Source: Erysipelotrichaceae bacterium
GTDB taxonomy: Bacteria; Bacillota_I; Bacilli_A; Erysipelotrichales; Erysipelotrichaceae
Assembly (NCBI GenBank): GCA_030528645.1
Contig: JAUMYM010000014.1
Span: 1 to 37,335, forward strand
Reading direction: 5' to 3'
Length of the DNA: 37,335 nt
This document shows, one piece after another, positions 2,302-33,737 of the stretch; within the stretch, counting starts at the first letter, position 1; every line of letters starts with the position of its first letter. A program made the translations under genes and the position numbers. The notes beneath the pieces are model-generated. The model was given only the letters and a program-made list of their open reading frames with translations. It ran no database searches and had not been told where the DNA came from.

Positions 2302-4161
2302 ATGAAAAAGAAATTATTAAATCATGTGCATATTTTAGTGTTACCATTTTACTTTGTAATAAGTGATGCGTTAGTCCGCATGTTTGCAGGACTAAGGCTT
2401 TTTTCACCGCGTGCTATTGCGTTTTCTTATTTCATAGGCTTATTTTTTAGTGGTCTATCTTTATTGTTAAAAGAAAAAGGACAAAAGATTTATTTGTCTA
2501 TTGTTTTTGTTATTTCGACGTTAGTTGCGTTTAGTCAAAGTTTATACTTTAATTTTTATACTGACTTTTATTCTTTTAATAAGTTAAGTAATATCAAAGA
2601 GTTTTTAGCCGTAAAAGGAGAAACGACCAAGGCATTTCATATGCAATATTTGCTTTATTTTGTACTGTTAGTGTTTATGATTGGATGGCTTATAAAGATG
2701 AACCTTCCAATCCACAATAAAAAACATAAAATACAGCTTGTGTTAGGTTTCGTACTTTTTGCATTGCTCGGGTATCACTCTGTTAAGTTCACATTTATAA
2801 ATAATATGCTTGATTCTACTCAAGTGTATTTAACGGATGATTATTTATATAAGACGTTATATTCGCATCAAAAGGCTGTTGAGCGTTTTGGTGTCTTTAC
2901 TCATGCCAATCGTGATTTATTGCGTATTGCAAAGACGTATCTTCAAAAAGCGGATCCAAAAGAGGTAAAAAGAATTGAAGAGTATTTTGCAAAACATCAA
3001 CGTGAAAAACAGCATAACGCTATGACAGGCTTATTTGAAAATAAAAATATTGTCTTGATTTTAGCAGAAAGTTTAGACCCATGGGGGATTCATCAAGAGA
3101 TTACACCAACACTTTATAAGATGAAACAAGAAGGAATTTATTTTGAAAATTATTATGCACCAATGTTTAATGCAAGTACCATTGATGCTGAATTTATGGT
3201 AAATACAGGCTTAGCACCTTCTTTGGAATCTGGTAATACAGCCTATGTCTTTAGTGGTAATACCTTTCCATTATCACTCGCAAATTTATTTAAGAAGAAA
3301 GGGTATAGTGCAATTAGTTATCACAATAGTATTGGTTCTTTTTATAATCGCTATCAGTTTCATGAAGCGCTTGGCTTTAGTGAGTTTTATGATTCCATCA
3401 AGTTAGACATTGAAACACCTAAAAACTTCGGTTATAACTGGGCACTTGATTACGATTTATTTGATAAGGCAAGTGACATTATTTTAAAACAGTCTCGTCC
3501 TTTCTTTTCTTATTTAATTACGGTAAGTATGCATACTCCATATGATGAAAATCGAATTGCTTTAAAAAAGAATTATGAATATGTATCAAAAATTTTACCA
3601 AATGAAGACAGTCAAATTATTTATTATTTAGCAGCTGGTAAAGACTTAGATGATGGATTGGAGTTATTCCAAAAAAGACTTGCAGAAGAAGGGATTTTAG
3701 ATGATACGGTCTTTGTTGTTTTTGGAGATCATTATTCTTATGGTATGCATCATGATATTATTTGGACTTACGATTTAGATACAAAAGGGGATTTTTATAA
3801 TCTTAAGAAAGTTCCTTTATTAATCTGGACACCAAATATGCAAGAACAAAAGATTAGTGAAATTGCAGGGCAATTTGAAGTGTATCCAACCCTTGCGAAT
3901 ATGTTTAACTTAGAGTTTAATCCGACTTATAATTTTGGGAATGATATATTTAATGAAGATGAAAATATTGTTGTCTATGGTTCAAAGAGTATTTGGCGTG
4001 ATAAAAACTTAGTGTATGATACAGGTAACATTGGTGCTAAGTATGTAGAGGATGCGGATGAATCTTACATCTTTGAACGAAATAGTTACGTGATTGAGCG
4101 TTTAAATATGTTTCAAAAAATCTTAGAACAAGATTACTTTAAGGAATTTAAGGGAGAATAA
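2302..4161 (+). CDS. ltaS: LtaS-family lipoteichoic acid synthase (sulfatase-fold phosphoglycerol transferase)
   Basis: This 619-residue protein has five N-terminal membrane helices (about 11-30, 38-56, 62-80, 113-132, 144-160) and then an extracellular sulfatase-type domain (about 245-600). The LtaS signature residues are visible: Glu256 in LILAES, the probable nucleophile Thr293 in ASTIDAEF, and the metal-binding FGDH at 474-477. LtaS enzymes polymerise glycerol phosphate from phosphatidylglycerol onto a glycolipid anchor at the outer face of the membrane. GAGGTAAG precedes the ATG. It is the first gene of a tightly spaced operon with a phosphodiesterase, a HAD-GtrA fusion and a glycosyltransferase, all consistent with LTA assembly and decoration. 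It could instead be an LTA primase or another phosphoglycerol transferase of the same family; the family call is firm and the exact polymer is inferred. Confidence 0.85.
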   Translation: MKKKLLNHVHILVLPFYFVISDALVRMFAGLRLFSPRAIAFSYFIGLFFSGLSLLLKEKGQKIYLSIVFVISTLVAFSQSLYFNFYTDFYSFNKLSNIKEFLAVKGETTKAFHMQYLLYFVLLVFMIGWLIKMNLPIHNKKHKIQLVLGFVLFALLGYHSVKFTFINNMLDSTQVYLTDDYLYKTLYSHQKAVERFGVFTHANRDLLRIAKTYLQKADPKEVKRIEEYFAKHQREKQHNAMTGLFENKNIVLILAESLDPWGIHQEITPTLYKMKQEGIYFENYYAPMFNASTIDAEFMVNTGLAPSLESGNTAYVFSGNTFPLSLANLFKKKGYSAISYHNSIGSFYNRYQFHEALGFSEFYDSIKLDIETPKNFGYNWALDYDLFDKASDIILKQSRPFFSYLITVSMHTPYDENRIALKKNYEYVSKILPNEDSQIIYYLAAGKDLDDGLELFQKRLAEEGILDDTVFVVFGDHYSYGMHHDIIWTYDLDTKGDFYNLKKVPLLIWTPNMQEQKISEIAGQFEVYPTLANMFNLEFNPTYNFGNDIFNEDENIVVYGSKSIWRDKNLVYDTGNIGAKYVEDADESYIFERNSYVIERLNMFQKILEQDYFKEFKGE

Positions 4162-4162
4162 G

Positions 4163-5095
4163 ATGAAAAAGTTTAAACAGATATTATCACTTATTATTCT
4201 TATAGAAGTAGTTGTCATTGTTGTTGTTTCTTTTGCAATTAAAGAAGATCGTAAAAAGAAACAAGTTGAACTGGCAAGTCTTTGGTTTAATCAATATCAT
4301 GTAGTAGCCCATGCGATGGGCTCTATTGATCAGTATCCTTACACCAATTCTTTGGAGGCATTTTATGCCAATTATGAAAAAGGGACTCGTGTATTTGAGG
4401 TGGATTTTGGTTTAACAAGTGATCAACATTTAGTGCTGACACATGGCTGGCTCGAGCATAAACAGCAACGTTTAGGTATGTTGCAGGCAGATGCATTACC
4501 AATGAGTTTACAGGAATTTAAAGAACAGAAAATCTATGGTCAATATACACCGTTGGATGTAAAGGACTTAATGAATCTCATGCATCAATATCCGGATATT
4601 TATGTCATTTTAGATTGGGGGAAACAGTTGGATTGGGATGAAGAGGCAAAAGTGGATCATATCTTTGATATTGAGCAATTAATTGCGTTAAATCAACAAC
4701 TAATCAATGAATTTAAGCAGGAAGATGAAACTTTATTACAACGTGTGATTCCTCAAATTTATTATGAAGATCATTATTATCGTTTGCATGAAGTATATCC
4801 ATTTAAACATTACATTTATACATTATATAAAAATTATGATAAAACCAACGCACGTAAAGTAATGCAGTTTATTACTAAGAATAAGATTGATGTGGTTACA
4901 AGTAATCTTTATGGGAAACAAGCTATGATTACTTCAGAAATAAAACGACAAATTAACTTAGATCGCACAACAAAGGCGTCGATGGCAGTGTTTTTACATA
5001 CGATTAATAACCTTGAAGAAGCTAAAAAATACATGGAAGAAGGATATAAAGGTATGTATAGTGATGGATTAAGTGAAGCGGATATGAAAGAATAG
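4163..5095 (+). CDS. Membrane-anchored GDPD/PI-PLC-like phosphodiesterase
   Basis: This 310-residue protein has one N-terminal membrane helix (about 7-26) and a TIM-barrel domain of the glycerophosphodiester phosphodiesterase superfamily. Visible motifs are HAMGSID (His50), NSLEAF (62-67), FEVDFGLTSD with Glu79 and Asp81, and THGW (His94). It resembles the subgroup that has HAxGxID and HDW instead of the classic HRG and HDxxL. Here the D of HDW is Gly95, which may affect metal binding or activity. The ATG lies one base after the ltaS stop, so translation is probably coupled. A likely role is cleaving glycerophosphodiesters outside the membrane, such as lipid or LTA fragments. That role is inferred from the neighbours. 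Confidence 0.68.
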   Translation: MKKFKQILSLIILIEVVVIVVVSFAIKEDRKKKQVELASLWFNQYHVVAHAMGSIDQYPYTNSLEAFYANYEKGTRVFEVDFGLTSDQHLVLTHGWLEHKQQRLGMLQADALPMSLQEFKEQKIYGQYTPLDVKDLMNLMHQYPDIYVILDWGKQLDWDEEAKVDHIFDIEQLIALNQQLINEFKQEDETLLQRVIPQIYYEDHYYRLHEVYPFKHYIYTLYKNYDKTNARKVMQFITKNKIDVVTSNLYGKQAMITSEIKRQINLDRTTKASMAVFLHTINNLEEAKKYMEEGYKGMYSDGLSEADMKE

Positions 5096-5103
5096 GTGAT
5101 TAT

Positions 5104-6057
5104 ATGAATGTATATGATTTCGATAAAACCATCTATGATGGAGATAGTACCATAGATTTTTATGTGTTTAATGTAAAAAAAGACTTACGTTTACTTCGTT
5201 TTTTTCCTAAGCAACTCTTTGGTCTTTTTAAGTATTTAGTATTAGGTGCAAGTAAAGAAACGTTTAAAGAAGACTTTTATTGTTACTTAAAAGCGATTGA
5301 TGTCGATACACGTGTGAAAGAATTTTGGTCTTTGCATCAAAATAAGATCAAAACGTTTTATTGGAAGCAAAAGAAAGAGGATGATGTCATTATCAGTGCT
5401 TCATCTGAATTTTTATTAAAACCTATTATAGAAGTGTTGAAGGTACGTCTTATTGCATCAAAAAACAATCCTAAAACAGGAAAATTTGAAGGATTGAATT
5501 GCTATGGCAAGGAAAAAGTCCACCGTTTCCATCAAGAATATCAAGAAACGATAGATGAATTTTATTCAGATTCTTTCAGCGATTTACCAATGAGTCAGTT
5601 AGCCATAAAAAGCTATATCGTTAAAAAAGAAGAAATTATACCTTGGGATGCGTATAAACCAAGTACCATTTCAAAGTGTAAGCAGATGTTTTTTTCCAAA
5701 CAATTTATACAATTTTTATTCATTGGTGTTATTAATACCATCAATGGCATTGCGTTTTCCTACTTATATTCTTTGTTTTTAAATCCAAATATTGCTTTTA
5801 TCTTTGGGTATCTTACTTCTTTAGTAATTGCCTATGTTTTAAATAGTACCTTAGTTTTTAAACATTCATTATCCCTTCAAACATTAACAAAATTTGCAAT
5901 TTCTTACATTCCTAATTTTATAATTCAAAATTTAGTAGTACTATTAGTATATAACGTTCTACATTTCCATAAATTGATTGCTTATGGTCTTGCGGCAATC
6001 TTAGGTATTCCAATTACATTTATCTTTCTTAAAATCTTTGCATTTAAAAAGCATTAG
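5104..6057 (+). CDS. Fusion protein: HAD-IB phosphatase domain plus GtrA-type flippase domain
   Basis: The 317-residue protein has two parts. Residues 1-180 form a HAD hydrolase with all motifs visible: YDFDKT (Asp5, Asp7), a Ser motif in IISAS (97-101), a Lys region near 135-138, and Asp156/Asp160 in YSDSFSD. The layout recalls PgpC-like or SerB-like HAD-IB phosphatases. Residues 199-317 carry four hydrophobic helices beginning QFIQFLFIGVINTING, typical of GtrA-family proteins, which are thought to flip polyprenyl-phosphate sugars. The next gene encodes the matching GtrB/CsbB-type glycosyltransferase. The phosphatase could act on phosphatidylglycerophosphate (supplying the LtaS donor lipid) or on a lipid carrier phosphate; neither is shown. 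No frameshift or internal start at the junction is apparent. Confidence 0.78.
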   Translation: MNVYDFDKTIYDGDSTIDFYVFNVKKDLRLLRFFPKQLFGLFKYLVLGASKETFKEDFYCYLKAIDVDTRVKEFWSLHQNKIKTFYWKQKKEDDVIISASSEFLLKPIIEVLKVRLIASKNNPKTGKFEGLNCYGKEKVHRFHQEYQETIDEFYSDSFSDLPMSQLAIKSYIVKKEEIIPWDAYKPSTISKCKQMFFSKQFIQFLFIGVINTINGIAFSYLYSLFLNPNIAFIFGYLTSLVIAYVLNSTLVFKHSLSLQTLTKFAISYIPNFIIQNLVVLLVYNVLHFHKLIAYGLAAILGIPITFIFLKIFAFKKH

Positions 6058-6066
6058 GAGGTTAGT

Positions 6067-6993
6067 ATGTTGTTATCGATAATTGTTCCATGTTATAACG
6101 AAGAACAAGTTGTAGCTTTGTTTTATCAAGAAGCCATTAAGCATATTTTAGCTTGTAACATGGACTATGAAATTCTTTTTGTAAATGATGGCTCCAAAGA
6201 TCAAACACTACAAGAGTGTTTAAAATTAAAAGAAAAAGATTCGCATATTGTCGTTATTGATTTTAGTCGCAACTTTGGAAAAGAAGCAGCGATGCTTGCC
6301 GGTTTAAAAGAGGCAAAAGGGGACTATGTGGTTATTATGGATAGTGATTTACAAGATCCTCCTTCTCTTTTACCTCAAATGGCAAATCTTTTAAATAGTG
6401 ATACTTGTGACAGTGTAGCAACCTATCGAGTAGATCGTAAAGGTGAGCCTTTGATTCGTTCTTTTTTTGCACGTTCTTTTTATAAACTCATTAATAAGTT
6501 TACAGAAGTAGAAATTGTAGATGGAGCACGCGATTATCGTATGATGAAACGTCAAATGGTCAATGCGATTATTGATTTGCCGGAATATCAACGTTTTTCA
6601 AAGGGTATTTTTACGTGGGTTGGCTTTCGAAGTCAATACTTAGAATATGAAAACATTCAACGTGTGGCAGGAGAAACCAAATGGAGCTTCTTTAAACTAG
6701 TGAAGTATGCCATTGAAGGTATTGTTGCCTATACCACAGCGCCACTTCGTCTTGCTACAGTGATAGGTATTTTAATGTCCATTGTAGGCTTTAGCTTTAT
6801 GTTGTTCATTGTTATAAAGGCTATTTTCTTTGGAGATCCTGTGGCTGGTTATCCTTCTATGATTGTAGTCATTTCTTTAATTGGTGGTATCCAGTTATTG
6901 GTGTTAGGGGTATTAGGAGAATATTTAGCGAAGACTTATATGGAAACAAAACGTAGACCAAACTATATTATTAAGAAAAGGTACGATGAATGA
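6067..6993 (+). CDS. GtrB/CsbB-type polyprenyl-phosphate glycosyltransferase (GT2, DPM1-like)
   Basis: This 308-residue protein has a GT2 catalytic domain with VPCYNEE at the N-terminus, NDGSKDQT (40-47), and the nucleotide-sugar and metal motif DSDLQDPP (92-99). Two C-terminal membrane helices (about 229-252 and 264-288) follow, then a basic tail. This is the full GtrB/CsbB architecture. Such enzymes transfer a sugar from a nucleotide donor to undecaprenyl phosphate on the cytoplasmic side. A GtrA-type protein then flips the product, and a GT-C enzyme such as YfhO uses it outside. All three are present in this locus. The ribosome site is AGGAGG, and the next gene overlaps by four bases. The sugar cannot be read from the sequence. 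Confidence 0.88.
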   Translation: MLLSIIVPCYNEEQVVALFYQEAIKHILACNMDYEILFVNDGSKDQTLQECLKLKEKDSHIVVIDFSRNFGKEAAMLAGLKEAKGDYVVIMDSDLQDPPSLLPQMANLLNSDTCDSVATYRVDRKGEPLIRSFFARSFYKLINKFTEVEIVDGARDYRMMKRQMVNAIIDLPEYQRFSKGIFTWVGFRSQYLEYENIQRVAGETKWSFFKLVKYAIEGIVAYTTAPLRLATVIGILMSIVGFSFMLFIVIKAIFFGDPVAGYPSMIVVISLIGGIQLLVLGVLGEYLAKTYMETKRRPNYIIKKRYDE

Positions 6994-8651
6994 AACTATT
7001 GATTTCTTTGCTATATCCTATATTTATTCTTGTCATTATGGGCGGTATTTTATACCATCAACGCATGCATAAACATTTTAAATGGTTTGTTTTCTTAAAT
7101 GGGATTTTTGCTTTTGCTTTATTGGTATTTACATATTTCTATTTTAAATTTGAAGATACCATTTATTTTTGGGATTCAAGTGGACAATGGAGCAACGCTA
7201 TTTATACATTGGATGCGTATCATTATTCATTAGATGGTCTGTTTTATGAGTTATATCAAAGTATGCTACATACTGAATATTCAAAGTTACCAGCTTTTTT
7301 CTTATTATTTCCATTGCATCAATTTGGCATTGAATTTCGTCATTTTGCCTTTGCGATGGTGTTGGTATTTGGCATCCCGGCGTGTTTTCTTCTAACTGCT
7401 TTTGTTTATCAATATCATCATGAAAAGATGAATAAATGGCATTTGCTATCGCTGGTAAGTCTTGTTTATTTAAGTATCCCTATTTTATTCTCCATGTTGG
7501 AAGGAGAAAGTGGGGCAGCCGGTATTGTATTTATTCTTTTCTTTTATTGGCTTTTTGCAAACTATCGCTATGAGCGTTTTGAATTACTTAAAAATATTGC
7601 ACTAGTAGGTTGTATTTTAATTTTAGTTTTTTTACGTCGATGGTATATCTTTTGGGTTATTAGTTATTTCTTTACGACATTTACATTTCAATGTTATGTA
7701 GCTTATCGTAAAAAGAAATTTCCTTTATGGCTCATAGTAAACTATGCCTTTATTACTCTTGCGGTACTTGTTTGTTTGTGGCTGTTCTTTAAAGAGTTTG
7801 TAATTATGATTACTACGGCAAACTATGTGGATGCCTATGTAGCTTATCGTATCAGTCTTTCAGATCAACTACAACATACATTAGGATTTTATGGCTTAGG
7901 TTACCTAGCTTTAGCTAGCATCGGGATATATTGGATTTATAAATTAAAAAGTAAGTATGGTTTTTTACCATTTCATATCGTATTTACTTATGCAACATTT
8001 TTAATCGTAGATCGTTTTGATACCCATCATTATTATGTAATTACCATTGAACTTTTATTATTGATCATAATTGCTATCTTAAGGATGGATAAGAAGTGGC
8101 AACATCTTCTAATAAGCGTAGTAATTGGCTTTGTCTTTCTTACAAAATTAGTCTTACCATTTCCAAATCTTTTAGCAGGAACGATTACCAATGTGCCTGA
8201 AGTACGTAAGGATAAGGAAGATATTATTGCAATGGTAAAGGATATGAATCAGATTGTGCAAGATGATTCCATTTATATCTTAGCGAGTTCGTTGTTATAT
8301 AATAATCAAACGTTTCAAAATGTCATGTTACCTCAAAAGATGTCTTCCATGAAGAATATGCTGGCAGTAGCGCACATCGATCAAAGAGATGGCTTTCCAC
8401 TTGTAGTCTTTGATGCAGATTACATACTCTTGGTTAGTCCACATCAAATTCATAAAGAAGCAAAGTATCAAAAAGTCATTATTAAATTAAGCGAAGCTTT
8501 ACAAACCATGGCAAGGGATCATTATCAACTTGTAAAAACATATAAAATTGATGAAACAAGCTTTACATTGGTAAAAAAAATCAAAGAGTTTACCTTGCAA
8601 CAACAACAATCTATTATTGATTTTGTTGAAATTGAGCCAATATTGAAATAA
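6990..8651 (+). CDS. Polytopic membrane protein, possible GT-C glycosyltransferase
   Basis: This 553-residue protein has about 11-12 hydrophobic helices in the first 400 residues and a soluble C-terminal part (about 405-553). I do not recognise a named family. An early extracytoplasmic loop near residue 60 contains DSSGQWSNA, which could be the acidic motif common in the first loop of GT-C and PMT-like enzymes. Its ATG overlaps the stop of the GtrB-like gene (ATGA), so the two are probably co-translated. This suggests it uses, or regulates use of, the lipid-linked sugar made upstream, perhaps as a second transferase besides the YfhO protein. The function is inferred. Confidence 0.6.
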   Translation: MKLLISLLYPIFILVIMGGILYHQRMHKHFKWFVFLNGIFAFALLVFTYFYFKFEDTIYFWDSSGQWSNAIYTLDAYHYSLDGLFYELYQSMLHTEYSKLPAFFLLFPLHQFGIEFRHFAFAMVLVFGIPACFLLTAFVYQYHHEKMNKWHLLSLVSLVYLSIPILFSMLEGESGAAGIVFILFFYWLFANYRYERFELLKNIALVGCILILVFLRRWYIFWVISYFFTTFTFQCYVAYRKKKFPLWLIVNYAFITLAVLVCLWLFFKEFVIMITTANYVDAYVAYRISLSDQLQHTLGFYGLGYLALASIGIYWIYKLKSKYGFLPFHIVFTYATFLIVDRFDTHHYYVITIELLLLIIIAILRMDKKWQHLLISVVIGFVFLTKLVLPFPNLLAGTITNVPEVRKDKEDIIAMVKDMNQIVQDDSIYILASSLLYNNQTFQNVMLPQKMSSMKNMLAVAHIDQRDGFPLVVFDADYILLVSPHQIHKEAKYQKVIIKLSEALQTMARDHYQLVKTYKIDETSFTLVKKIKEFTLQQQQSIIDFVEIEPILK

Positions 8652-8718: not shown

Positions 8719-9288
8719 ATGGAAAAAATTTTAGTCGAAATTTCTGCTAGACATATTCATTTATGCCAGGAACATTTAGACATCCTTTTTGGAAAAGATT
8801 ATCAACTGACAAAGAAAAAAGAATTATCACAACCTGGGCAATATGCAGCCGAAGAGAAAGTTATAGTAAGGGGTCCTAAAAGTGAACTGAAGGTTACGGT
8901 TTTAGGTCCACTTAGAAAACACACACAACTTGAAATCTCGTTGACAGAAGCACGTGCTTTAGGTGTAAAAGCGTTAATTCGTGAATCTGGGAATATTGCT
9001 GGTACTACAGGAATAGAAATTATAGGTCCAAATGGTAGTGTTACCATTGAAGAAGGTGTGATTGCTGCAAAGCGTCATATTCACATGACACCGGAAGATG
9101 CGAAAAACTATGGTGTTGAAAATGGTGACTTAGTGAGTGTTAAAATTGAAACAGAAGAGCGTTCATTAACATTCTCAGATACGGTAATACGTGTTTCGGA
9201 TAAATTCGCGTTGGCTATGCATATTGATACCGATGAAGCTAATGCTGCTGGATTTTCCGGGACAACAATGGGTGTATTAATCAAATAA
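8719..9288 (+). CDS. pduL: PduL-type phosphate acyltransferase (phosphotransacylase)
   Basis: This 189-residue protein matches the PduL family over its whole length. The two repeated barrel halves each carry the metal-binding signature: RHIHL (His12, His14) and KRHIHMTP (His120, His122). A GIEIIGPNG stretch lies between them. PduL enzymes interconvert acyl-CoA and acyl phosphate. They serve bacterial microcompartments or, in free-standing forms, acetate formation in place of Pta. No microcompartment shell or aldehyde dehydrogenase gene is nearby, and there is no N-terminal targeting extension, so a cytosolic acetyl-CoA/acetyl phosphate role is likelier. The gene has its own promoter and terminator. 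Confidence 0.88.
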   Translation: MEKILVEISARHIHLCQEHLDILFGKDYQLTKKKELSQPGQYAAEEKVIVRGPKSELKVTVLGPLRKHTQLEISLTEARALGVKALIRESGNIAGTTGIEIIGPNGSVTIEEGVIAAKRHIHMTPEDAKNYGVENGDLVSVKIETEERSLTFSDTVIRVSDKFALAMHIDTDEANAAGFSGTTMGVLIK

Positions 9289-12879: not shown

Positions 12880-12903
12880 GTTAGTCATGGAGGATTGTAT
12901 TCA

Positions 12904-14091
12904 ATGACAGACTATAGTGTAAATCTTACCATCCAAACGATTTGGAATGTATCCCGCATTTTTTTAGATGTTTTAATCATGTGGTTTTTAATATATTATG
13001 TAATTAAATTTGTTCGTAACAATGCACGTACCATTCAAATTTTTAAAGGGATTGTGTTTATTATTATCATTAATGGCTTAGCGAAAATCTTAGGACTAGG
13101 TACGGTGGAGTGGTTATCAAACATGGTTGTTAGCTGGGGTTTTTTAGCTGTTATCATCATCTTTGTACCGGAAATTCGTAGTGTATTAGAAAAACTTGGA
13201 AAGAGTAATGTTTTTTCAAAGATTACAACTTTATCAGGAAATGAAAAAGAACACCTTGTGGATGAAATTGTAAAAGCGAGTATGATTTTATCAAGACAAC
13301 ATACAGGGGCTTTAATCTGTATTGAACAAGGACAATCCTTACAAGATTATGTAAAAACAGGTATTATTTTAAATTCTGTAGTCTCAACCGAATTAATTAC
13401 TTCTTTATTTGTAACAAGTACACCACTTCATGATGGGGCAGTCATCATTCAAGGGAATAAAATTGCTTGTGCAAGTGCCTATTTTCCGCCAACAAATTTA
13501 GAACTTCCTTCGAAATATGGTTCAAGACATCGTGCTGCCATTGGTATGAGTGAGATTACGGATTCTGTGACCATTGTAATATCCGAAGAAACAGGAAGTA
13601 TTTCCATTGCAGATGGTGGTAAGATCATCACTGTAAATCGTAAAGAATTACGTAATTATTTAATGCGTGTCATCTGTAATGAAGAAACAGAATTGAAATA
13701 TAAAGAAGAACAACACAGTGAATTTGTCGTATTAGACAGTCCGGATGTTGTGGTAGAAAAGAAACAGGATAAGAGTAGTTTCTTTAATAAGTTTACAATT
13801 CGTCGACAAAATAAGAAAGTAAAACCGGAGAAACAAGTAGAAGTCATAGAAGAAAATGTACAAGAACTTCAAAGTAAAGAAGAAGAAATCTTTAAGGAAC
13901 TGGAAGAAGAAGAAAATAACATTAAGTTACCAGATAAGCGTAAGTTTACTTCTTTTGAAGATATTGTGAAACAAGATGATGATTTTAGTTATTTAAATTT
14001 AGATGGAGATTTAGAAATTCTAGAAATTTCTACGAAAGATGAACCAATCTCACCAAAGGATCAAGAAGATGGAGGTGAACAAAATGGTTAA
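12904..14091 (+). CDS. cdaA: Diadenylate cyclase CdaA with long charged C-terminal extension
   Basis: This 395-residue protein has three N-terminal membrane helices (about 14-36, 46-62, 72-90) and then a DisA_N/DAC domain with the catalytic DGA (177-179, in TPLHDGA) and RHR (208-210). It condenses two ATP to cyclic di-AMP, which controls potassium and osmolyte uptake and wall homeostasis. Typical CdaA is about 270 residues. Here residues about 262-395 form an extra Lys/Glu-rich, low-complexity tail of unknown role. An upstream TTG at 12895 is only one base from the GGAGG site, so the ATG at 12904 is chosen. It overlaps cdaR by 8 bases. CdaR and GlmM both modulate CdaA in other Bacillota. Confidence 0.93.
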   Translation: MTDYSVNLTIQTIWNVSRIFLDVLIMWFLIYYVIKFVRNNARTIQIFKGIVFIIIINGLAKILGLGTVEWLSNMVVSWGFLAVIIIFVPEIRSVLEKLGKSNVFSKITTLSGNEKEHLVDEIVKASMILSRQHTGALICIEQGQSLQDYVKTGIILNSVVSTELITSLFVTSTPLHDGAVIIQGNKIACASAYFPPTNLELPSKYGSRHRAAIGMSEITDSVTIVISEETGSISIADGGKIITVNRKELRNYLMRVICNEETELKYKEEQHSEFVVLDSPDVVVEKKQDKSSFFNKFTIRRQNKKVKPEKQVEVIEENVQELQSKEEEIFKELEEEENNIKLPDKRKFTSFEDIVKQDDDFSYLNLDGDLEILEISTKDEPISPKDQEDGGEQNG

Positions 14092-15481
14092 AGATAAAAA
14101 TAAAATGAATAATGATTCCGAAGTTAAATTAGAACTGGCGAATCGTATTGCGCAACAAAGTAAACGTGTAAGTACAACCTATCAAAACTTTGAAGCAGGT
14201 ATCTTTAAAATCTTCCGTACCATTAGTACGCTGATTGATCGTGTTTTATTTAATTCTAAGTATAGTATTTTAGTATCTTTAGGCTTAGCGATCTTATTTT
14301 ATATATCCATTAACTTTAATTCGGATAATTCTCTTTTTTCACGTACGACAATCAATGCCAAAGAACTTTATAATATTAAAGTAAATGCTTCGTATAACGT
14401 GGAAAGCTTTGAATTATCTGGCTTGCCTACAACTGCCAATATTACCATTATTGGTGATGCCAGTGATGTCATTACCGCAAGTAATAAATCTGGATATGTT
14501 CTAGCTGATTTAGATGGTCTTGTAGAAGGGAAGCATGTGGTTAAGTTAAAAGCGGTAGGCTTTGGAGATAATGTCAATGTAAAGGTGGATCCAAGTAATG
14601 CCTATGTGACCCTAAAGAAAAAGACGACACGTCAATTTGATTTAAGTTATGATTTTATTAATACGGATAAATTAAATAATATTTATATTTTAGGGAAACC
14701 TGAATTTGAAAACAGTAAAGTAAATGTTCGTGCTTCTCAAGATACATTAGATAACATTTCCCTTGTAAAAGCGTTGATTGATGTAACAGGTGTGGATGGC
14801 AACTTTACAAAAGCAGCTAAATTGGTTGCGTATGATTCAAGTGGTAACATTGTAAATGCGGATATTGTACCGGAAACGGTAAATGTAAGTGTTTCAGTTA
14901 CTTCGCCAAGTAAGACAGTGCCAATTGTCTTAAAGACAACCGGAGAATTGCCGGAGGGTATGTCTATTGATTCCATTACGATGGATAATCAAACGGTAAC
15001 CATCTATGCAAGTGATACGGTTTTAAATAAAGTAGAAAAAGTAACGGTTGAGTTAGATGCATCAACCTTGAATAAGGATACAAAAATTGTACAACCGATT
15101 GTGCTTCCTACCGGTGTTAATAGTTCAACAATTACAAAGGTAAACTTAGATATTAAGCTTGGACAAACAACATCAAAAGAAATTGAGCATGTCGATATTA
15201 TGTACATTAATAATGTCAATAAATTATCACTTTCGGTATTGAATAATCAAACAACTGTAACGGTGATTGCCTATGGTACCGAAGCGAATTTAGAGCAGCT
15301 TACAAAAGATGATATCAATGCCTACATTGATTTACAAAATGCCCAAGCAGGTGTTACGGAAGATATTCCAATCTATGTAGATCAAAATTCAACATCGTTT
15401 GTAAAATATGTCTTAAAACAAAACAAACTAAACGTTACGTATAGTGATGGAAGTACAAATGAGGATAAAAAAGATGAGTAA
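14084..15481 (+). CDS. cdaR: CdaR (YbbR-domain regulator of CdaA)
   Basis: This 465-residue protein has a cytoplasmic N-terminus of about 60 residues, one membrane helix (about 61-78), and an extracytoplasmic region of several YbbR-like repeats rich in beta strands and in V, T, N and D. CdaR interacts with the membrane part of CdaA and alters its activity. The start is the ATG at 14084, preceded by GGAGGTGA; an in-frame upstream ATG lacks a ribosome site. It overlaps cdaA by 8 bases and glmM by 8 bases, so the three are probably co-translated. The C-terminus is Lys/Asp/Glu rich. Confidence 0.92.
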   Translation: MVKDKNKMNNDSEVKLELANRIAQQSKRVSTTYQNFEAGIFKIFRTISTLIDRVLFNSKYSILVSLGLAILFYISINFNSDNSLFSRTTINAKELYNIKVNASYNVESFELSGLPTTANITIIGDASDVITASNKSGYVLADLDGLVEGKHVVKLKAVGFGDNVNVKVDPSNAYVTLKKKTTRQFDLSYDFINTDKLNNIYILGKPEFENSKVNVRASQDTLDNISLVKALIDVTGVDGNFTKAAKLVAYDSSGNIVNADIVPETVNVSVSVTSPSKTVPIVLKTTGELPEGMSIDSITMDNQTVTIYASDTVLNKVEKVTVELDASTLNKDTKIVQPIVLPTGVNSSTITKVNLDIKLGQTTSKEIEHVDIMYINNVNKLSLSVLNNQTTVTVIAYGTEANLEQLTKDDINAYIDLQNAQAGVTEDIPIYVDQNSTSFVKYVLKQNKLNVTYSDGSTNEDKKDE

Positions 15482-16808
15482 ATACTTTGGAACGGATGGA
15501 ATACGAGGAAAGGCTAATGTAACGTTAACCGTTGAAACAGCCTTTAAGATTGGTCGTTATTTAGGTTATCATTTTAGCAAAGAAAAAAAAGCCCATATTG
15601 TCATTGGTAAGGATACACGTTTATCAAGCAGTATGTTTGAGTGTGCCATTGCCTCAGGAGCAAGTAGTAGTGGCTGTGATGTTTCTTTGGTTGGATATTG
15701 TCCAACACCGGCGATTGCCTATTTAACCAAAAACATGCATTTTGATTGTGGGGTTATGATTAGTGCGAGTCATAATCCATACTATGATAATGGGATTAAG
15801 ATTTTTTCAAGCGAAGGAATTAAAATTGATGCGAAGCTTGAAGAACTAATCGAAGCGTATATTGATGATGAAGTAAGCCTTGCGTATGCCTCAGGGAATG
15901 AGATTGGTAAAATTGAAACATATAGTGAAGGATTGCAACAGTATTTAGATTGGTTAGCTTCTTTATTTCCAATGGATTTATCAAATTTTCACATTGCCAT
16001 TGACTGTGCCAATGGTTCAAGTACAACGACAGCACTTCAACTTTTAACACGCCTACATGCCAATTGTCATGTGATTTACAATGAGCCAAACGGCATAAAT
16101 ATCAATGAAGGTTGTGGTTCTACACACCCAGAAGCTTTGTGTAAACTTGTAAAAGAAGGTAAGTATGATTTAGGCTTGGCATTTGATGGAGATGCAGATC
16201 GTCTTATTGCGGTTAATGAAGATGGACAACTCATCGATGGTGATTACATTTTATATATTTGTGGTAAATTTTTAAAAGAGAATTATGCTTTAGAAAACAA
16301 TACGGTTGTTACAACGGTAATGGCGAATCTTGGTTTCTTTAAGGCAATGGAGCGTTTACAAATTGATACAAAGTCAACAAAAGTTGGTGACAAGTATGTT
16401 TATGACTGTATGGTAAAAGAACACTTCACTTTAGGTGGGGAGCAATCCGGACATATTATTTTTTCAAACCATGCGACAACGGGAGATGGTTTATTAACGG
16501 CTTTAAAACTCATTGAAGTGATGCATAAAACATCAAAGTCTTTAAAGGAATTATCGGAAGGCTTAAAAATTTATCCGCAATTATTGGTAAATGTTCCTGT
16601 TAAGGATAAAGAAGTGGTGTTACATGATGAAGATGTAGCGAAAGAAATTGAAGAGGTTACATTAAAATTAAAGGATAATGGTCGTATTTTAGTTCGACCA
16701 AGTGGCACAGAACCATTAATTCGTGTTATGGTAGAAGCAGAAACAGAAGAACTATGCCATCATTATGTTTATCAAGTTGTTGATTTAATCAAACAAAAGA
16801 ATTTATAA
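15474..16808 (+). CDS. glmM: Phosphoglucosamine mutase GlmM
   Basis: This 444-residue enzyme starts MSKYFGTDGIRG, typical of GlmM. The catalytic phosphoserine is Ser99 in ISASHNP, the metal loop is DGDADR, and the sugar-phosphate motif RPSGTEPLIRVM is near the C-terminus. It converts glucosamine-6-phosphate to glucosamine-1-phosphate for UDP-GlcNAc and peptidoglycan. In Bacillus, Lactococcus and Staphylococcus, GlmM binds and inhibits CdaA. The conserved cdaA-cdaR-glmM order ties c-di-AMP to wall precursor supply. Upstream in-frame starts are ignored because the GAGGATA site fits the ATG at 15474. Confidence 0.96.
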   Translation: MSKYFGTDGIRGKANVTLTVETAFKIGRYLGYHFSKEKKAHIVIGKDTRLSSSMFECAIASGASSSGCDVSLVGYCPTPAIAYLTKNMHFDCGVMISASHNPYYDNGIKIFSSEGIKIDAKLEELIEAYIDDEVSLAYASGNEIGKIETYSEGLQQYLDWLASLFPMDLSNFHIAIDCANGSSTTTALQLLTRLHANCHVIYNEPNGININEGCGSTHPEALCKLVKEGKYDLGLAFDGDADRLIAVNEDGQLIDGDYILYICGKFLKENYALENNTVVTTVMANLGFFKAMERLQIDTKSTKVGDKYVYDCMVKEHFTLGGEQSGHIIFSNHATTGDGLLTALKLIEVMHKTSKSLKELSEGLKIYPQLLVNVPVKDKEVVLHDEDVAKEIEEVTLKLKDNGRILVRPSGTEPLIRVMVEAETEELCHHYVYQVVDLIKQKNL

Positions 16809-32933: not shown

Positions 32934-33737
32934 ATGAAACGTATAAATGAAGTATTAAGTAAAAAAGATTTAGTGGATTATTTTTTAAGACTCGGATTAA
33001 AAAGCGGGATGATTGTGGAGGTACACTCTTCTATAAAAGCATTGGGAACTATCTTGGGGGGAGCTGCTACGGTATTAGATGCCTTAATCGAAGTGGTTGG
33101 CTACAATGGAACGATTATTATGCCTATGCACAATTATGCCAATACGGAACCATCTAAATGGCAATATCCACCGGTTGCTTTATCCCTTATTGCAAAGGTA
33201 CGCAGTGAAATGCCGGCCTTTGATCGCAAGATGAGTGATGCTTATAAAATGGGGGCTTTGGTCGAGGCTCTTCGTCGAAAAGAAGGCGTTGTCATTTCAA
33301 GTCATCCAAGTGTAGCCTATGCAGCATGGGGGAAATATGCAAAGTTATTGTGCAATCATCAATCGTTTCACTTTGCCTTATCAGAAGAATCCGCAACCGC
33401 TACATTATATGCAATGAAAGCTCATTGTTTATTATTAGGTGTTGATTATGATAGTGCCACATGCATGCATCTGGCAGAATATCGCAGTGATATTCGACCA
33501 ATTATTGTGGAAGGATGTGCCATAAATGTAGATGGCAAACGACAATGGAAAAAACGCTTAGATGTCGATTTAGACAGTGATGATTTTCTTGAGGTCTTTA
33601 AAGTCATAGAAGCCAAAGGATATGTTACAAAACAGGCAATCGGTACAAGTGCTATGAAGTTATTTCGTATTGATGTAGCCATTGATGAAGCAATCAAGTA
33701 TTTCGATAACCATCATATCTATAATTTATACAGGTAG
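32934..33737 (+). CDS. AAC(3)-family N-acetyltransferase
   Basis: This 267-residue protein belongs to the aminoglycoside 3-N-acetyltransferase family (YokD-like). Visible features are VEVHSSIKALGTILGG, PMHNYANTEPSKW, SSHPSVAYAAWG with a conserved His, and LLLGVDYDSATCMHLAEYR. It uses acetyl-CoA. Its position inside a conserved metabolic operon, four bases after DUF1836, suggests a housekeeping substrate. No mobile element or resistance context is nearby, so an antibiotic role should not be assumed. Confidence 0.82.
   Translation: MKRINEVLSKKDLVDYFLRLGLKSGMIVEVHSSIKALGTILGGAATVLDALIEVVGYNGTIIMPMHNYANTEPSKWQYPPVALSLIAKVRSEMPAFDRKMSDAYKMGALVEALRRKEGVVISSHPSVAYAAWGKYAKLLCNHQSFHFALSEESATATLYAMKAHCLLLGVDYDSATCMHLAEYRSDIRPIIVEGCAINVDGKRQWKKRLDVDLDSDDFLEVFKVIEAKGYVTKQAIGTSAMKLFRIDVAIDEAIKYFDNHHIYNLYR

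Follow-up and report, generated by a model that had tools for sequence, protein, structure and literature searches.

Lipid-linked pentofuranoses are made by a short series of steps, in which a decaprenyl-phosphate phosphoribosyltransferase (DPPRS) places ribose-5-phosphate on polyprenyl phosphate, a phosphatase then takes off the 5-phosphate, and the product is flipped across the membrane and used outside (PMC11127046). The decaprenyl-phosphoryl-arabinose pathway of mycobacteria (Rv3806c, Rv3807c, DprE1/E2 and Rv3789) keeps its phosphatase and flippase as separate proteins. Its proposed flippase, Rv3789, is a GtrA/SMR protein. Rv3807c is not a HAD protein, and the mycobacterial phosphatase is unrelated to that of the Citrobacter system (PMC11127046). 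In the pentofuranose system of Citrobacter youngae O1, the HAD phosphatase is instead fused to the UbiA-type polyprenyl phosphoribosyltransferase (ORF15, PRP-UbiA), accompanied by a MATE flippase (ORF14) and the GT136 glycosyltransferase (ORF12; PMC11127046). Glycosylation of lipoteichoic acid (LTA) in Bacillus and Staphylococcus relies on the CsbB/GtcA/YfhO set, that is, a GT2 enzyme, a GtrA protein and a YfhO protein, and in the dolichyl-phosphate mannose synthase (DPMS) of Pyrococcus furiosus (5mlz) a donor-making enzyme is fused to a GtrA/DPMS membrane domain. Described here is a HAD-IB phosphatase fused to a GtrA flippase, encoded beside an LtaS-like synthase on a contig of an Erysipelotrichaceae bacterium (JAUMYM010000014.1), the whole of which, 37,335 nucleotides, was analysed and is termed the window. 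On balance, the fusion appears to supply the central steps in making a lipid-linked pentofuranose, its HAD part removing the 5-phosphate and its GtrA part flipping the product, and as such it combines domains in a new way within a pathway type already known.

As in C. youngae, a UbiA-type polyprenyl phosphoribosyltransferase, a HAD phosphatase, a flippase and a polytopic glycosyltransferase occur together, the last three here as candidates for their roles, but the phosphatase is fused to the flippase rather than to UbiA, and the flippase is a GtrA and not a MATE protein. The lineage is also Gram-positive, the genes lie beside LtaS, and the polytopic transferase candidate matches no Pfam family. 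A homologous DPPRS and a GtrA/SMR-type flippase are shared with mycobacteria, from which the locus differs in the fusion itself and in lacking a detectable DprE1-type domain in the genomes searched (see below). The presence of GT2, GtrA and YfhO beside LtaS recalls the CsbB/GtcA/YfhO system, although here GtrA is joined to a phosphatase, and a DPPRS, a second YfhO, and MBOAT and DHHW proteins are additional neighbours. The soluble part of the Pyrococcus enzyme is a GT2 domain, whereas here it is a HAD phosphatase.

The fusion is real. Both domains score over their cut-offs (Table 1), the catalytic HAD motifs are intact, and the fusion recurs, with the gene order preserved, in the independent assemblies G001 (the nearest named relative, Erysipelotrichaceae bacterium OH741_COT-311, with a 98% identical fusion), G021 and G031, which rules out an assembly artefact and bears out what an earlier note on this DNA, made from the sequence of the window alone, had claimed. 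The motifs comprise DFDKT at residues 5-9, SAS at 98-100, K138 and DSFSD at 156-160, and are invariant or nearly so across 19 aligned relatives. An AlphaFold model (pLDDT 92.9, pTM 0.81) folds into an alpha/beta domain with a hydrophobic helical cap (cap helix at residues 28-45), followed by four predicted membrane helices (199-223, 228-251, 258-285 and 290-313 by the secondary structure of the model), the first of which starts just before nucleotide 5704. With Foldseek, the HAD part finds HAD phosphatases (best PDB match 3fvv; phosphoserine phosphatases), and the GtrA part finds the membrane domain of Pyrococcus DPMS (5mlz, E 8e-4). A phmmer search with the fusion sequence alone returned no PDB relative, while a fusion profile does reach 3fvv and 5mlz; among named models, the HAD part matches only the general HAD-IB ones. 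Lying ahead of the first transmembrane helix and lacking a signal peptide, the HAD part is expected on the cytoplasmic side, a placement that fits action before flipping. No HAD-GtrA fusion was found reported in the literature searched, which left most subscription papers outside.

Since the window is a whole contig that opens with the YfhO gene, the UbiA gene lies beyond its edge and was invisible to the earlier note. The end of contig C7 of the same genome aligns to contig C13 of G001, ending 2.05 kb before the start point of the window (identity 99.1% and 98.9%), and on this alignment C7 and the window are neighbouring contigs. The C7 side of the fusion encodes a second YfhO (840 residues), a 542-residue polytopic protein, UbiA, two related DHHW/AlgX-like proteins and an MBOAT/DltB-like protein. 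Synteny places UbiA about 9 kb from the fusion, past the contig edge; on single contigs the distance is 8.9 kb in G001, 9.1 kb in G021 and 17 kb in G031. Along its full length, the UbiA protein aligns with DPPRS of M. tuberculosis (8j8j; E 2.5e-42), and it retains all nine Rv3806c residues (R22, K28, Y70, N73, D77, K87, R90, Y138 and K143) named for phosphoribosyl pyrophosphate (PRPP), lipid and Mg binding in the structural paper (PMC10994848). Elsewhere on C7, a large cluster of glycosyltransferase genes includes a second GtrA and, next to it, a second GT2 of the GtrB type (L182:4089-5442; G000:C7).

Among 78 relatives, the fusion occurs in four genomes, namely this one, G001, G021 and G031, and a DPPRS occurs in exactly these four (3/62 genera), a coincidence that would have a chance of 2.6e-5 were genera independent, an assumption that does not fully hold. 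In raw counts, UbiA was nearby in 12/22 cases with the fusion as against 11/76 without it (Fisher p 0.0003), in a set of loci picked by similarity to four fusions and not a random sample. One class of fusions sits directly beside a DPPRS-family UbiA (L089, L090, L091, L094, L095, L104, L106, L132 and G337); in Clostridium and Desulfosporosinus, UbiA lies 16-101 bp upstream, with DPPRS-model scores of 171-205 bits. In 11 further cases UbiA is next to an unfused member of the same HAD family, 10 of them within 60 bp, and UbiA operons with a separate GtrA gene are found in L139, L142 and G396, the first two with a HAD alongside. Parts that are fused here and separate elsewhere classically argue for a shared pathway, and a HAD fused to GtrA, with a DPPRS linked to it, would supply precisely the two steps that the DPPRS leaves to be done. 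In G337, the adjacent fusion and UbiA genes are beside an LtaS homologue and a relative of the 542-residue protein (E 5e-40), the family of which accompanies UbiA in G001 and G021 as well. The same region of G337 (L183:15943-17392) also carries a PgfS-like GT2 with a separate GtrA, two flippases thus standing side by side.

These genes, motifs, linkages and co-occurrences allow a substrate, an order of steps, flipping and an acceptor to be proposed. Acting in the cytoplasm, the HAD part would strip polyprenyl-phosphoryl-ribose-5-phosphate of its 5-phosphate, and the GtrA to which it is fused would flip undecaprenyl-phosphoryl-ribofuranose, or a derived pentose, outward. Outside, a membrane glycosyltransferase would attach the pentose to a polymer of the cell surface, for which LTA is the simplest choice. 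The best candidate for this glycosyltransferase is the 542-residue protein beside UbiA, which has no Pfam or PDB match. GT2 and YfhO would constitute a second, CsbB-like, hexose-type donor/transferase set at the locus, and the fused GtrA may be common to both sets. The sugar is likely to be ribofuranose, not arabinose, since the DprE1-type oxidase domain PF04030 was found in 0/11 genomes, with a positive Corynebacterium control and other epimerases not searched for; the arabinose branch (DprE1/DprE2) is rejected on the same result. Next to UbiA, the genes for the two DHHW/AlgX-like proteins and the MBOAT/DltB-like protein form a conserved block (L179:11385-15264, L180:10669-14515 and L181:5916-9811), suggesting O-acylation of the same surface polymer.

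LTA is the putative acceptor because the LtaS-like gene is the sole LtaS match in the genome, its product keeps the catalytic residues, and LtaS homologues adjoin the UbiA-fusion pair in G337 and in Clostridium puniceum, the latter being the one case of LtaS near a fusion in the neighbourhood set outside Erysipelotrichaceae. Aligned to eLtaS (2w5q/2w8d), the protein has the alkaline-phosphatase-type domain with its metal ligands, the catalytic Thr (Ala in chain 2w5r), and the GDHY and ES motifs. It scores 181 bits to the LtaS model against a curated equivalog cut-off of 970, and is therefore best called LtaS-like and not an equivalog. A tentative and rather doubtful extension would be export gating, whereby the 5-phosphate holds lipid-linked ribose on the inner leaflet until the same polypeptide removes it and flips the product, with LTA gaining pentofuranose; no report of pentofuranose decoration of LTA was found in the literature searched.

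Several observations weigh against the proposed pathway. The UbiA scores fall just under the curated model cut-offs (229 bits for the protein of this genome, where the DPPRS model requires 234), and a tree-corrected pairs test of fusion against UbiA, with only three usable pairs, was not significant. UbiA is missing from the vicinity of 10 of the 22 fusions in the tree, and seven of these ten, from gut Clostridia, directly follow carD-ispD-ispF (L096, L097 and L099-L103). DPPRS was not found in the genomes of those seven, which rules out an obligate pairing of the fusion with DPPRS; because none was detected in this class, the fusion may work without it, and its role may be wider or not the same in every class. 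The adjacency to carD-ispD-ispF is itself an unexplained link to isoprenoid or carrier-lipid supply. Additionally, the donor synthase nearest to the fusion in the window is the GT2 enzyme, encoded about 10 bp downstream. By analogy with CflA of Lactococcus, a single GtrA flippase that serves several donors (PMC8035078), the fused GtrA may serve both the ribose-type and the hexose-type donor.

The proximity of GT2 and the precedent of CflA also favour LTA glycosylation of the CsbB/GtcA/YfhO type, in which GT2 makes undecaprenyl-phosphoryl-hexose, the fused GtrA flips it, YfhO transfers the sugar to LTA, and the HAD part acts on the carrier or donor. As the earlier note recognized, all three components are found beside the LtaS-like gene. 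The active-site residues of its product are intact, and the arrangement holds in three genera; the order LtaS, GDPD, fusion, GT2 is kept in all four fusion genomes, with two extra genes between in G031. The nearest solved relatives of GT2 are GtrB enzymes (5ekp, sll0501; E 3e-78 over 300 residues), and its best named model is PgfS at 320 bits, under the cut-off of 500; YfhO scores 73.5 bits to the PgfM2 model, well under the cut-off of the latter. In the neighbourhood set, however, no GT2, GDPD or YfhO gene lies within 5 kb of any fusion outside Erysipelotrichaceae, so that the co-occurrence of HAD-GtrA with GtrB-type and YfhO genes, offered in the earlier note as a check, fails there and an obligate pairing with GT2/YfhO is ruled out. 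The fusion instead goes with a DPPRS-type UbiA or with ispDF, and in G337 a separate GtrA accompanies the PgfS-like GT2, the fusion being paired with UbiA. The CsbB-type pathway is also not known to include a step that requires a phosphomonoesterase. It is thus an unlikely account of the fusion, and the glycosylation frame is half of the story. A coupling of lipid-phosphate removal to flipping, as first proposed, is supported in part, with the phosphatase and flippase better placed with UbiA than with GT2/YfhO.

Less probable still is a general house-keeping protein for polyprenyl phosphate, one that dephosphorylates or recycles the inner-leaflet carrier and flips it, for example, and was recruited to several pathways. 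The seven ispDF-linked fusions and the commonness of stand-alone HADs without UbiA speak for such a role, to which a patchy spread over 4/78 relatives is ill-suited; the ispDF-linked fusions moreover cluster in the HAD tree with Oscillospiraceae stand-alone HADs, apart from the window protein. Conversion of phosphatidylglycerophosphate to phosphatidylglycerol for LtaS, also raised in the earlier note, would suit a protein of the HAD-IB class, like PgpC, that has a hydrophobic cap and is encoded next to LtaS, but is very improbable and ruled out as the main role, as the genome encodes YqeG, the usual Firmicute phosphatidylglycerophosphate phosphatase (135 bits, cut-off 89), the window protein has no PgpC (TIGR01545) match at E 0.001 (a Clostridium relative reaches 25 bits against 259), and the same HAD occurs elsewhere with UbiA or ispDF.

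The fusion was thought unusual, and it is indeed uncommon in Erysipelotrichaceae, where stand-alone HADs of about 185 residues occur in 16 other genomes of the 78 relatives, but it is not rare in Clostridia. Among GTDB contigs, fusions account for 20 of the best 80 loci; the hosts include C. puniceum, Desulfosporosinus nitroreducens, Oscillospiraceae, other Clostridia and one Lentisphaeraceae genome. As the fused state takes about ten changes in the HAD tree, most deep branches of which are weak, the fusion was probably gained or lost repeatedly. Divergent full-length HAD-GtrA-like proteins without a Pfam match lie beside tgt in G234, G246 and G270, reduced genomes of another family (L081:1501-2454, L082:1498-2451 and L083:1501-2457). 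They carry MRIFSFSRVIYDG where the HAD motif MNVYDFDKTIYDG is expected, and are probable dead phosphatases with the membrane part retained.

The source genome is 1.38 Mb and 97.5% complete. The six genes first listed for the locus are all present as open reading frames with their places, strands and Pfam families as given (Table 1). From the LtaS-like gene to that of the 553-residue protein, gaps are at most 9 bp or a 4 bp overlap, spacing as in an operon, and the GDPD gene is syntenic in G001, G021 and G031. The 553-residue protein is possibly a GT-C glycosyltransferase, judging from its topology and an FWDSSG motif after the first helices. Sequence and profile searches gave it no Pfam or PDB match, and neither it nor the 542-residue protein matched the transferases adjoining Clostridial UbiA. 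It has relatives at 24-28% identity in G044, G019 and G036, and a structure model built from two sequences only (pLDDT 38) was unusable for GT-C assignment. Directly downstream of the operon is a PduL/EutD-type phosphate acyltransferase (8719-9288). The window further encodes CdaA diadenylate cyclase, YbbR/CdaR and a GlmM-like phosphoglucomutase in a row, the usual cyclic di-AMP operon (12895-16808), and an aminoglycoside 3-N-acetyltransferase family protein (32934-33737; PF02522, 215 bits).

Table 1. Features of the fusion locus, in window coordinates.
Feature	Position	Strand	Evidence
YfhO family polytopic protein, predicted GT-C, 722 residues	19-2187	- (divergent)	PF09586 219.6 bits, cut-off 28.5
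LtaS-like polyglycerolphosphate synthase	2302-4161	+	PF00884 (Sulfatase) 135 bits
GDPD-family phosphodiesterase, hydrophobic N-terminal segment	4163-5095	+	PF03009 36.2 bits, cut-off 23.6
HAD-GtrA fusion, 317 residues	5104-6057	+	HAD residues 3-163; GtrA residues 203-314
HAD-IB phosphatase part of fusion, residues about 1-200	5104-5703	+	PF12710 55.4 bits, cut-off 27; TIGR01488 46.1 bits, cut-off 45
HAD motifs I; II; IV	5116-5130; 5395-5403; 5569-5583	+	Alignment and script
GtrA flippase part of fusion	5704-6057	+	PF04138 47.6 bits, cut-off 26.1
GtrB/CsbB/PgfS-type polyprenyl-phosphate glycosyltransferase, GT2 with C-terminal transmembrane helices	6067-6993	+	PF00535 116 bits
Polytopic protein, 553 residues	6990-8651	+	No Pfam match

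In the fusion, a GtrA protein is tied to a phosphatase that is soluble and open to assay. Pathways of the kind proposed for it have so far been described in mycobacteria and Gram-negatives. If the proposal is true, some Firmicutes would make polyprenyl-phosphoryl-ribose from PRPP and, beside their LTA machinery, would decorate a surface polymer with pentofuranoses.

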